Below, in pieces: positions 12,101 to 52,723 of a stretch of 64,000 nt of DNA. A program made the translations under genes and the position numbers. Every line of letters begins with the position of its first letter. Position 1 is the stretch's first letter. The stretch is from Sacculina carcini (taxonomy: Eukaryota; Arthropoda; Thecostraca; Sacculinidae), in assembly GCA_916048095.2 (NCBI GenBank), contig OU696583.1:3656501-3720500 (forward strand), in the 5' to 3' direction. The notes under the pieces are model-generated. The model made no database searches, was not told where the DNA came from, and saw only the letters and a program-made list of their open reading frames with translations.

Positions 12101-15100
12101 ATACTACGAAGAACTATAGTTCTTCTTAGTATTTTTTTCCAGCTATCCCTTATATTGGACCAATTTTGCTTCCACACGGAGAACTATAGTTCTTCGTAGT
12201 ATTTTGAATAGAACCAAGACATGTTGTGTTAGTACTTTTGCTTATATGCCCATTATTTGAATGTGTAATGTAATGTGTGCGTTTACCTGTTGCGTCCACG
12301 TGTGTGGGCTTGTCAGTTTTTCATTTTTCGTGGAACACACAATCCGATGATAAGCTTCTGTTTCCTCCGTTTCGTGTAGTATTTTGTGTGTGTGTACGTG
12401 GGTGTTATTACGGCAGGTGTACAAACACAAGTTACTTTCGTTTGCATATTCTGCCACAGGAGTGCACGTGCACGCACTTGCGCTCGCACCGTCGAATATT
12501 CATTGGAAAATATCACCAGAGAAATTTGCACTTACCAATGCTTTATTGATTTCCTGAAATACCAAATTATGAATGCTAAATGTCAGTGGAACTTCTTAGT
12601 ATTCAGTTATTATGCTTTTGTTCCTAAACAAGATATTCTGATATGTTTGTACAACATTTTCGGATGTTTGGGTGGAAATAGGTTTTATCTCAAGGCTCTA
12701 TACAAATTAGTCCATTTCTTTGTGATGCTGTTTTGGTAAATTTCTCACAATACAAACTGTTTTTGCCTGCTATATTTTAACTGCTTTTTAATACTATGGA
12801 GGTATATATCAAACAAATTTGCTGTATCAAACATACTATATATCTAAAACTTTTGTATTTGGCCATTATCAATATTAATCAAAGTTAACATGGTTGATTT
12901 TGCATCGCTGCTTTCGGTCTGCGGACATTGTGCGCACATGAGTTGCACTTGCTGAAACTGCCACGTGGTCGCCTGCTTATAATAACACAACACTGGTTTG
13001 CCTATTTACCAGCCCATGTCGGCGTGCGACCAGGGTGCTATTACGTGATGACTGCTGCTGTGTGGCTAGCACGTGCTGGTGTACACACCTGCCGTTGCTG
13101 CAGCGTTGCATGCTTGTGTGTGTGTTTGGTGCCTGGGTACACACACACACACACAGTGCATTCTAGACGCCGGCATGTGATTCACGAGACCGTGCATGTG
13201 ATTCACGAGCTCTTGAAAATCAGTGGTCAATTGACAGAAATACACTGGGGTCTCCGGTGTTGCACTGTGTTAATGAACTTGCAGCGGACGGTTCATGGCT
13301 GCGTGAAACATTGCACTGTATCCACCGGCGTCTGCATGGCTACTGCTATCATTATTATTATTATCCGTTATGTGAAGGCTTTTCGCTAAACAAAATTTAG
13401 ATTAACAAAAACTCCCGAAATAGCATGTGTGTGTGTGTATTGTGTGTCAGATGAATGTCGGGAAAGAAGAATAATAATTTAGAAGGAATTTAAAAAAGTA
13501 ATGGTAATGATAGAGTTCGCATTCATGATGAGATTCAGTATTCAGTGTGTTCTTCCTAACAGTGTATGTGTGTGTATGTATGTATGTAGTCGGGTGTGGA
13601 GCGTCACTCGTGTGGGCTGCACGACACGCAGTCAGACAGTACAGACACGCTGTCAGCGCGTCATCGACACGACGTGGCGCGCCACCTCATGACACAAAGT
13701 CCGCGCACCTCTCCACGGTGAGCATGAGACGGACACTTTCAGGCGATCACTAGTGGTGGTCACCACAAACTTTGTCCTGACACCACGGGCACGCGAGATG
13801 GAAACGAAGGTCTAATCCGGGGGTCGGCAACCCGCGGCTCTTTGGCGCTACCTAGTGGCTTATATATATATTTTGTTATCAAGCTTATATAAGGCTTTCA
13901 ATTTTTTGCGGCTTCAGACATATTTGTTTTTTGGTCCAATATGGATCTGTCAACATTTTGGTCTGCCCCCTCTGGTCTAATCGGACCACTTCTTTCGGTT
14001 CAAAGTTGAAGTCAGCGCTGGGTTAGTAGAGCTGTTGATTGTTGGTTAACAAGTTATCACCGTCGTCAACCCTGGGTACAGTGACACATATCCTGGAATT
14101 CTTGCACAGAAGTCACATAAACATTAAATGCGGGACATATCACTACATCACAGGGCTACCACTCAGCGCCTGCACTCGCATTTGATTGATCGCTATTGTG
14201 GCAAGAACAACTCCGTGTTGTTTCCAGTCGTGTTTCGGTTGGGCGTGGCGGATCTTCTGTTTATCTATCAAATTTCTGGCTGACTTTGTTCGTTGTTTAT
14301 ATTTTTGCTCTTATATATTTGTTGGGGTGGGGAGTGCTACCCCAGTGTCTCGTTGTTTATTTCGACACACGTATTTTTGGTGTCACGCTTTCAGGACTGA
14401 AGAAGACGGCGTGTCGGCTCTTGATTTCACCACTCGTCTTTCTGGCAGCGGCAATTGTCAGGTCGGATTTCATGCGTGAAAGCTGCCGCGCATTCTTATC
14501 AACGATTGCCAGTATTAAATTGATTGTGATTACTTTTACTGTATATACTGTATATATGGCTGTGCTATATGTTTTTACAGACCAGCGCAACTTCACATGA
14601 TTTCCATGACAAGAATTCTGTGTCTCGCGGCTCCACAATTGGTTCAGGTGAGATTGCGTTCTGCAGAGTGGATAGCTGAACACACCGGGCCGTAGTCAGC
14701 GCCCCCACACCCCCCGGCCGGGGGGCCCCCGGGTGTTGAGGGGACCCGCTGCCTCACGCATTATATTGAAATTTATCATAAAGTAGCGGATATAAGTACC
14801 GCAAGTCCCCAGGAGACCGAGGGGCTGCTTGTAACTGCATTTTCTCAAAGTCGGATCCCTATTATATTGGTGTTTTATTTATATTGGGAGCCTCAGTATT
14901 GCCTTCGCGGGCCATACGACCTTGCTACGGCTCTGTGAACACTCGTTATAATGTCTTATACACATTGTTTTTTACTTGTATTCGGAGCATTTTGTATTCG
15001 TGATCACTGCCTAACACATAGTGCATGAACTATTCCTGTGACATTGGGTGTACCTATGATAGAGAATATTGACGTCAATAGTGTATTTGCACACTAATTA

Positions 15101-52400: not shown

Positions 52401-52723
52401 ACAGGAGTGAATGTCCCCTCGCTGAATCACGGCCAGTTTCCTTATTTTTGAATTTCCCAGTTCAATGACCCGACTTGCCTTCACTGGTGATTATTTTTCA
52501 AGTCAGTTGCAACACGGGTTGATAGTTATAGGTTGCTGTTTGATTCTGTGTCGCGAACACAATACGTCATGTGTGTTGAGTATAACCGGACTGGTGTCCA
52601 GTGCGTCCAGTTGCCTTGCTTATACGGTTTGATGGGTTGTTGGACAGAACCGACACGGAACCCCCGGCTAAGAAGGCGAAATCACAGATGGGGTACCAAT
52701 TCGGCTCGTTTTCATCATGGTGA
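40459..52723 (+). CDS. PPIL2: U-box cyclophilin, peptidyl-prolyl isomerase-like 2
   Basis: Exons 40459-40490, 44060-44273, 46748-46891, 47354-47516, 48079-48248, 49548-49671, 50079-50227, 50952-51296 (or -51302), 52022-52188, 52648-52723; phases agree; 527 aa (human 520). Nuclear, spliceosome-associated protein with ubiquitin-ligase-type U-box. N-terminus MGKKQHQKDK; U-box FRRLPFTHCALSLQPFENPL (~36-105); middle KLDAKSLIRLHFHKNS and LLTDDPFSRSDIITIQDP; cyclophilin domain ~283-440 (GGDPTGTGTGG, SQFFITF); GVGKYI and terminal SFSSW. Cyclophilin Arg326, Phe331, Met332, Gln334, Phe385 and His398 are kept, but the Trp121 equivalent is His393. Intron 4 has a GC donor (AAG then GCAAGT). Intron 1 holds Harbinger and CR1 insertions; intron 2 a 1.4-kb minisatellite. 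Confidence 0.95.
40542..41631 (-). mobile_element. PIF/Harbinger deletion derivative 2 with truncated transposase
   Basis: Terminal repeats AGCCGTGGTCACACGAGG (left) and the complement ending CGGCT (right); TTA duplicated at 40539-40541 and 41632-41634. Minus-strand ORF 41393-40887 (168 aa) is the N-terminal part of a HARBI1-like nuclease: [52 protein letters not shown]. It ends before the DDE catalytic core, after an internal deletion. Subterminal palindromes as in 7036-7892. It appears to sit within or at the edge of the CR1 copy that follows. Confidence 0.88.
41640..43847 (+). mobile_element. CR1-like element, copy B, RT palm deleted
   Basis: Plus strand in PPIL2 intron 1. Endonuclease C-terminal motifs RFIILGDFNFWVDCPSR, SGHSLDLILFPS and FSDHSLMLTSLP, then an RT-linked ORF (42142-43521) with RAYY-type and PKALWNILNSLCG segments. 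At about 42756-42765 the frame jumps from LADKHA straight to SDVLYAISTWTSS, so the catalytic palm including the YADD box is missing (about 0.6 kb). C-terminal SRLDYCSSLHFSCP. The tail ends with ACTGAACTGAACTGAACTAG. Confidence 0.85.
44460..44810 (-). repeat. Possible tRNA-derived SINE
   Basis: On the minus strand, GTGGGAGGTCCGTGGTTCAA followed by AACCCGG resembles a Pol III box B (GGTTCAAAACCC) with tRNA-like arm context. The body further downstream is unique in this window. No second copy here, so weak. Confidence 0.35.
45208..45266. repeat. (AT)n microsatellite
   Basis: About 58 bp of alternating AT in PPIL2 intron 2, just upstream of the GT-rich minisatellite. Confidence 0.95.
45318..46740 (+). 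repeat. GT-rich minisatellite, 32/34-bp units, in PPIL2 intron 2
   Basis: About 40 copies of a unit with GTGTGGGTGATGGTGGGTGT and TTTGTGTGTGCG (34 bp; 32-bp variant lacks one GT). A 260-bp higher-order duplication is visible: the rare GTGAGTGATGG variant recurs at about 46131 and 46391. The array runs to within 8 bp of the exon 3 acceptor (46747). Confidence 0.95.
48318..48660 (+). repeat. 25-bp minisatellite in PPIL2 intron 5
   Basis: About 13.5 tandem copies of ACTGACATCTCATATTACTG plus TCATC. Alternating C/T (ACACCTC vs ACATCTC) and C/A (TCATC vs TCATA) variants mark sub-families. Confidence 0.95.
49053..49305 (+). mobile_element. MITE, four-copy family, copy 4 (PPIL2 intron 5)
   Basis: Left CGGAGCCGATGCG, right GTGCTGCTACGGCTCT; core GGAAAATGCAATTACATG, TTTTTATGCGCTATTTTA and GAGGCAACGGGTCCTCTC. 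No target duplication visible. More diverged than copies 1-3. Confidence 0.65.
49712..49808. repeat. (AC)n microsatellite, PPIL2 intron 6
   Basis: About 97 bp of perfect AC repeat, with further AC/GT-rich sequence to about 49915. It lies 40 bp after the exon 6 donor. Confidence 0.95.
50609..50647. repeat. (TA)n microsatellite, PPIL2 intron 7
   Basis: About 39 bp of TA repeat. Confidence 0.9.
51678..51983. mobile_element. hAT-like MITE, PPIL2 intron 8
   Basis: Left end CAGGCGTCTCAAATTC; right end GCCGCGTTTTTGAAGTCCCTG, complement CAGGGACTTCAAAAACGCGG. Flanks GTCTAGAA and GTCTAATA match at 6/8. The internal 85-codon ORF is AT-biased and not recognised. Confidence 0.65.

Follow-up and report, generated by a model that had tools for sequence, protein, structure and literature searches.

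Putative UG-tract acceptor signals at many introns of Sacculina carcini, and two diverged copies of U2AF2

To our knowledge, the pyrimidine tract upstream of the acceptor and its reader, U2AF2, are near-universal in animals. UG repeats are the classic ligand of TDP-43, and in vertebrates they lie beside the acceptors of exons regulated by TDP-43 or CELF proteins. These exons are a regulated minority and mostly repressed; human TDP-43 at such sites mostly acts as a repressor. In 2004, Yeo et al. are said to have described the AC/GT-repeat introns of fish, and Lin et al. reportedly proposed in 2016 that AC-GT pairing in the AC...GT introns of fish makes U2AF2 dispensable. According to PMC10946897, pyrimidines are gained upstream of the acceptor in all eight eukaryotes surveyed. 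In Fritillaria borealis, both U2AF1 and U2AF2 are duplicated, and PMC13326754 ties the diverged U2AF2 copies experimentally to weak or unusual 3' ends of introns.

In this report, we found that the last stretch before the terminal AG in gene models of Sacculina carcini is commonly a UG tract, in which U and G alternate, mostly within the final 30 nt, and which takes the place of a pyrimidine tract. This tract is specific to the sense strand, adjoins the acceptor, replaces C-rich and U-run tracts, helps to mark true AGs and is absent from some genes.

UG-rich acceptors in the 64-kb window

A first-pass annotation of the window, the whole 64-kb stretch of DNA under analysis, had named about 14 acceptors with UG repeats. 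This count was borne out: 14 of 14 are present in the window sequence, and G+T make up at least 75% of positions -25 to -4 in 13 of the 14, the exception being RPLP0 exon 2 (73%). The coordinates below run to the end of the intron, which is the lower number on the minus strand. In the Schnurri-like gene (plus strand), the tracts precede the putative exons 1 (13550-13589), 2 (15516-15555), 7 (18872-18911) and 8 (19590-19629), whose acceptors were placed from the sequence. Two further Schnurri-like acceptors outside the original list end at 17059 (G+T 91%) and 18182 (68%).

Spliced protein alignment, together with the sequence, backs the tracts of RPLP0 exon 2 (24885-24924, minus), of TRAPPC3 exons 2 (33325-33364), 3 (35906-35945) and 4 (36478-36517), and of PPIL2 exons 3 (46708-46747, UG/G-rich) and 6 (49508-49547), the last two genes on the plus strand. 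For TRAPPC3 exon 3, manual correction moved the boundary from 35947 to 35945 and discarded a tiny exon that was spurious. The tract of PPIL2 exon 3 lies where a 34-bp GT-rich minisatellite (45321-46739) terminates, and that of exon 6 lies where a TG array (49401-49537) stops. The acceptor originally named for PPIL2 exon 9 (51982-52021, plus) is ambiguous, with the aligner favouring an AG 21 nt downstream (52042). In PSMF1 (minus strand), exons 2 (39872-39911) and 6 (37561-37600) have alignment support at a far lower score; the acceptor of exon 5 (38021-38060) comes from a frame read by eye. The aligner did not find this exon, and the introns that the aligner placed at 38858-38615 and 38591-37965 were excluded. 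Two aligned acceptors provide a contrast: that of RPLP0 exon 3 (24625-24664, minus) is T-rich without a TG repeat, and that of PPIL2 exon 4 (47314-47353, plus) has neither a UG nor a pyrimidine tract.

Of the aligned introns in the window, 17 reach 130 nt; eight of their acceptors have a TG run of at least 8 in positions -53 to -4, and one has a CA run. In positions -20 to -4, G+T reach 75% in 10/17 and pyrimidines in 0/17. TG and CA microsatellites occur elsewhere in the window, too. The evidence therefore lies in the bias of strand and position, not in the mere presence of repeats.

UG tracts across the sampled genes

The wider sample comprises 116 introns in 33 gene models fixed by spliced protein alignment, in which acceptors were scored by AG alone. 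All junctions were inferred from homology, with human proteins as queries. For the window, 18 introns were added manually and bypassed the identity filter. Twenty introns were dropped on length or flank identity, some with a TG tract and others without one; for the ATP1A pair, the downstream identity limit was eased from 0.5 to 0.4, and all 22 introns were retained. Counts that require at least 130 nt use 113 of the 116 introns, excluding RPLP0 intron 2, one VCP intron and one intron of the ATP1A gene on C2. The AG-gap, motif and per-position tables come from a set of 81 introns that was put to no other use and still contained TDP-43 introns later rejected by the filter. Donors were 68 GT and one GC of 69, and acceptors were CAG (59), TAG (9) and AAG (1), figures partly built in by an aligner that admits only GT/GC...AG introns; within that constraint, such introns suffice for long gene stretches without other types.

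The idea that UG is enriched at acceptors over the intron background holds in the 113 homology-based introns. TG runs of at least 8 lie within positions -53 to -4 of 54/113 acceptors, versus 9.0% of interior windows, a 5.3-fold enrichment that is confined to the sense strand: CA runs are found at 3/113 acceptors versus 3.2% of interior windows (0.83-fold). Donors in the same 113 introns have no strand bias (13 TG versus 11 CA runs). GA runs are absent (0/113), TA runs are mildly enriched (4/113), and CT runs (1/113) are too few to judge. By composition, G+T make up at least 75% of positions -20 to -4 at 69/113 acceptors (cluster-bootstrap 95% interval 47-74%; interior 14.3%), and pyrimidines do so at 5/113 (interior 10.7%). 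In the first 92 introns, positions -25 to -4 are A.13, C.11, G.34 and T.42, versus.25,.20,.20 and.34 in the interior. The excess is not limited to perfect repeats: where no TG run reaches 8 (41 acceptors), TG density is.175 versus.090 within the same introns (p 4.5e-9). U-runs of at least 5 are depleted, at 2.7% versus 10.3% in the interior. As a discriminator of true from nearby AGs (113 true of 1412), TG content yields an AUC of.851, T.747 and pyrimidine.568.

The AG-free stretch upstream of acceptors has a median of 52 nt, versus 17 nt at random interior points (81 introns). No clear branch-point motif emerged from this 81-intron set. As a hint, and with tract starts defined by composition, YTNAY is somewhat enriched at 6-17 nt before the start of the tract, where 24 of 57 occurrences within some 45 nt are found. 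Across 32 genes, the signal had no significant gene-level correlation with the GC content of introns (rho 0.24, p 0.19), nor with TG (rho 0.26, p 0.15) or CA (rho 0.02, p 0.92) in their interiors.

The UG signal is not universal in the sampled genes. The ATP1A gene on C21 had been picked for testing while its introns were still unseen; G+T reach 75% at only 1/12 of its acceptors, and 10/12 have neither kind of tract. Its paralogue has the UG signal, and nine introns lie at residues common to both. In beta-tubulin, a TG run of at least 6 was found in 0/6 introns, and single introns of HSP90, RPSA and SF1 also lack the tract. Splicing in these genes thus works without it. The first-pass description of UG repeats as a routine acceptor signal accordingly extends well beyond the window (69/113 introns), but must be softened by the frequency of tract-less acceptors. 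The signal sorts by gene with the ATP1A pair included (p 0.0016); once this pair is removed, significance is lost (p 0.14), and sorting by gene as a general rule is not established.

Candidate readers and alternative explanations

Both U2AF2 and the TDP-43/CELF proteins had been named as suspects, and their orthologues were examined. U2AF2 is present as two head-to-head genes without introns. They match TIGR01642 (U2AF_lg) at 420.5 and 409.7 bits against a cut-off of 310.3, the match reaching the end of the profile, and RRM_1 is above its cut-off in both. Third-position identity between the copies is.965 in the UHM, falling to.525 in RRM1,.296 in the linker and.451 in RRM2. U2AF1 is represented by one close match and one 36% relative (43 candidates scored).

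We compared the copies at the uridine contacts of human U2AF2 given in PMC4786784. By alignment, and in our own count numbering, R146, Q147, N196, K225, R227, V254, D256, K260, F304, K329 and G338 are kept in both; both carry R in place of K340, and one has D in place of T252. At position 289 the human N is H in both copies; two papers searched, one of them PMC4786784, named no role for it. The kept contact residues speak for retained uridine binding over a rewritten code. An altered U2AF specificity, as first suggested, is possible: the duplication with diverged RRMs argues for it, and the retention of most uridine-contacting side chains argues against it.

Our preferred reading, to which we assign a probability of about 0.45, is that UG tracts commonly function as acceptor signals in this genome. 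One or other of the diverged U2AF2 pair is the lead candidate reader, and the TDP-43 paralogues are the main alternative or helper. The tract would act in the RNA to define the acceptor, and an RRM protein bound to it would recruit the U2 snRNP. The leading candidate for this role would be a U2AF2 copy that shares a near-identical UHM, the protein-contact domain, with its partner while differing in RRM1, the linker and RRM2.

A less probable but still serious alternative is that TDP-43 or CELF-type proteins read the tracts, replacing or assisting U2AF2. At least three TDP-43 genes exist. The TDP-43_N model has three matches (all three candidates were scored): on C26, two form a head-to-head pair separated by about 0.5 kb, and the third is on C29. 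Each carries two RRMs, and UG repeats are the ligand expected of such proteins. A CELF-like gene is also present. With at least three TDP-43 genes, these suspects remain candidates. Nevertheless, copy number is no proof of a role, in the copy TDPb the tryptophan of the GLPW motif is missing, together with other residues, and the mostly repressive action of the human protein is at odds with a general acceptor signal.

The tract-less genes raise another, rather unlikely, possibility: two acceptor codes, UG-tract and tract-less, may exist side by side, gene by gene, each with its own U2AF2 copy. The RRMs would have diverged after an old duplication, with gene conversion keeping the UHM alike. If the ATP1A pair represents one paralogue per class at nine shared intron positions, it would be direct evidence of code switching.

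Slightly less probable is a purely mutational origin, in which TG microsatellites arise often and, being AG-free and unstructured, are tolerated beside the AG with no dedicated reader. Such tolerance of microsatellite expansion was part of the first-pass interpretation. TG/CA repeats are indeed frequent in the window, the PPIL2 arrays are plainly minisatellites, the AG-free stretch at acceptors is long, TA runs are mildly enriched as well, and the ATP1A pair shows that a tract can be gained or lost at a given intron position. However, CA repeats, which are equally AG-free, are not enriched, and GA repeats are absent; donors have no strand bias, U-runs are depleted, and the TG excess remains where runs of 8 are lacking. 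Tolerance is thus unlikely to be the whole story.

Very improbable is an arrangement of the fish type, in which donor-side AC repeats pair with acceptor GT repeats and U2AF2 is dispensable. Some introns, e.g. in ENO1 and VCP, do combine AC close to the donor with TG at the acceptor, but in 67 introns neither co-occurrence nor own-partner pairing is in excess: a TG run of at least 6 occurs in 9/13 introns with a donor AC run versus 39/54 without (Fisher p 1.0; Spearman 0.03), and duplex energy is -22.6 with the own partner versus -22.2 with shuffled ones (p 0.25). An artefact of wrong intron boundaries is the least probable explanation of all, for although the boundaries rest on alignment to human proteins and partly on unfiltered, hand-entered introns, acceptors were scored by AG alone, filtered introns outside the window agree (38 TG versus 2 CA runs in 75), and nine introns fall at the same residues in both ATP1A paralogues.

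Relation to described splice-site systems

We found no report in the open-access literature of UG tracts as a general acceptor signal of an animal. Most sampled acceptors have UG tracts and U-runs are depleted, which suggests that large-scale change in the make-up of this signal is possible. The genome is a natural test of the joint evolution of splice-site codes and their readers, and the ATP1A and U2AF2 pairs make the question directly testable. There is also a consequence for annotation: many exons of this genome could escape gene finders that were trained on pyrimidine tracts.

The acceptors retain several hallmarks of the canonical metazoan 3' splice site, namely the CAG/TAG end, the AG-free zone upstream and a T content of about 42%, but differ in having 34% G and 11% C at positions -25 to -4. 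Likewise, the introns have the GT/GC and AG ends of the canonical U2 type, whereas an upstream pyrimidine tract is seen at 5/113. As in the vertebrate exons regulated by TDP-43 or CELF, UG repeats adjoin acceptors; here, however, they do so at housekeeping genes. Like the AC/GT introns of fish, these introns have GT repeats close to the acceptor and lack a strong pyrimidine tract. The fish introns are a minority class, whereas UG tracts are found here at about half to three quarters of sampled introns, and in 67 introns neither a donor-side AC partner nor complementarity within the same intron was seen.

The likeness to Fritillaria borealis (PMC13326754) is that both animals have two diverged U2AF2 copies. 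U2AF1 is duplicated there; here the 43 candidates scored include a close U2AF1 and a relative at 36%. Most introns of the Fritillaria type are non-GT/AG; the gene models here are accounted for by GT/GC...AG introns (68 GT and one GC of 69, from an aligner that allows only these). The altered signal here is UG, and the UHM is near-identical between the two U2AF2 copies.

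Acceptor composition inside the window and beyond it

The genome comprises 264.4 Mb in 43 contigs, of which the window covers G000:C18:3656501-3720500; in the window RPLP0 (an identity also backed by Pfam), TRAPPC3, PSMF1 and PPIL2 were found by spliced alignment to lie amid repeats. A 1.4 kb GT-rich minisatellite (window 45321-46739) reaches the PPIL2 exon 3 acceptor, a 25-bp minisatellite (48317-48658) lies within the intron preceding PPIL2 exon 6, and TTGGCC-rich repeats occupy 7051-7888 and 40546-41615. The region flanked by direct repeats at about 55465-56000 and 60585-61000, nearly identical by eye, looks like a minus-strand LTR retroelement.

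Introns were placed with a purpose-written spliced protein-to-genome aligner, which scored donors by a generic weight matrix and acceptors by the letters AG alone; thus, tract composition had no influence on acceptor choice. The queries were human proteins. Genes outside the window were filtered by identity in the ten residues either side of each junction. The 18 window introns bypassed this filter, being transcribed manually from the alignments; the boundary of TRAPPC3 exon 3 was corrected, and a pair of PSMF1 introns judged doubtful was excluded. The first set held 94 introns from 31 gene models (18 from the window, 76 from elsewhere), 20 having been dropped; the full set, including ATP1A, holds 113 introns of at least 130 nt.

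All 14 acceptors at which the first-pass annotation reported UG repeats are present, with PPIL2 exon 9 ambiguous. The Schnurri-like acceptors are putative, placed from the sequence, and PSMF1 exon 5 was placed by eye. In the window, a TG run of at least 8 nt occurs at -53 to -4 (upstream of the exon) in 8 of 17 introns of at least 130 nt, and a CA run in one. The observation itself is borne out outside the window as well, in introns from 33 gene models. At the acceptors of 92 introns of at least 130 nt, TG runs (≥8) numbered 46 and CA runs three, versus 11 of each at the donors. In this set, TG density per nucleotide is.09-.12 far upstream,.153 at -50 to -31 and.247 at -30 to -11, and CA density falls toward the acceptor from.06-.075 to.037. 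The TG excess persists in acceptors that have no such run, and G makes up 30-47% at each position from -23 to -4 (81 introns). Among all 113 introns, 54 have TG runs (≥8) at the acceptor and three have CA runs; at -20 to -4, G+T reaches 75% in 69 (61%; cluster-bootstrap interval, 47-74%), pyrimidines do so in five, and neither in 41. The acceptor UG signal is very probably real as a fact of sequence.

Signal or tolerated repeat

Repeat expansion surely contributes raw material for these tracts, as in the PPIL2 arrays. The counts at acceptors, however, argue against simple tolerance of TG repeats there. Runs of at least 8 nt are 5.3 times as frequent at acceptors as in interior windows for TG, but.83 times for CA; GA runs are absent from the 113 acceptors, TA runs occur at four (2.9 times interior), and the single CT run is too small a count to judge. 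Further, when the true acceptor is ranked against other AGs lying from 300 nt before the intron end to 30 nt into the exon, the AUC is.851 for TG density, versus.747 for T content and.568 for pyrimidine content. U-runs of at least 5 nt are depleted at acceptors (2.7% versus 10.3%), the opposite of what a U-tract reader would favor. These facts argue for the UG tract as an RNA-level signal. We put the probability that it is a functional element at roughly three in four; the figure for the reading as a whole is lower, because the protein proposed to read the tract is a candidate.

In fish introns, donor AC repeats pair with acceptor GT repeats. Such pairing is rejected here on a sample of 67 introns, which had neither donor-AC/acceptor-GT co-occurrence nor a within-intron pairing excess.

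Acceptors that lack the tract

ATP1A, a test gene picked before its introns were inspected, replicated the pattern only in part. In the copy on contig C21, G+T reached 75% at -20 to -4 at just one of 12 aligned introns, and ten of the 12 acceptors lack a tract of either kind, UG or pyrimidine. In the copy on C2, by contrast, eight of nine acceptors (introns ≥130 nt) reached that level, and TG density exceeded that of the C21 copy at all nine shared intron positions. Therefore, the UG tract is common but dispensable, and it varies between paralogues at homologous introns. The beta-tubulin introns contain no TG run of at least 6 nt (0/6). The tract was first described as a routine acceptor signal; this is apt for 69 of 113 introns, well beyond the window, but tract-less acceptors are also common.

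Candidate readers

U2AF2 is represented by two head-to-head genes whose coding parts are intronless (G000:C26:1032205-1036676; L060, L061), both U2AF large subunits (TIGR01642). Their third codon positions are 96.5% identical in the UHM, the protein-contact domain, but 45-57% identical in RRM1, RRM2 and the N-terminal region; the pair thus fits an old duplication whose C-terminal portion was recently homogenized by gene conversion. EEF2, PGK1, PPP6C, ALDOA, RPS6 and RPS2 likewise aligned without introns (L002, L023, L030, L032, L070, L071), as if these genes and the U2AF2 pair were retrocopy replacements or had lost their introns. CK2-like kinase segments at 37-42% identity occur in large numbers and in clusters on C32 (712 kb) and C11, loci L040-L050, and also on C20. 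They lie in open frames of 205-2530 aa and may belong to an expanded or mobile family.

TDP-43 is encoded by at least three genes (G000:C26:5882001-5892000, L068; C29:890501-896500, L069), including a head-to-head pair in which about 0.5 kb separates the N-terminal domains. A U2AF2 copy would be our first candidate for the UG-tract reader and TDP-43 our second. Most of the uridine-contacting side chains named in PMC4786784 are retained in both U2AF2 copies. The nearest experimental parallel is Fritillaria borealis, in which U2AF is duplicated and its copies act at 3′ ends of unusual type (PMC13326754).
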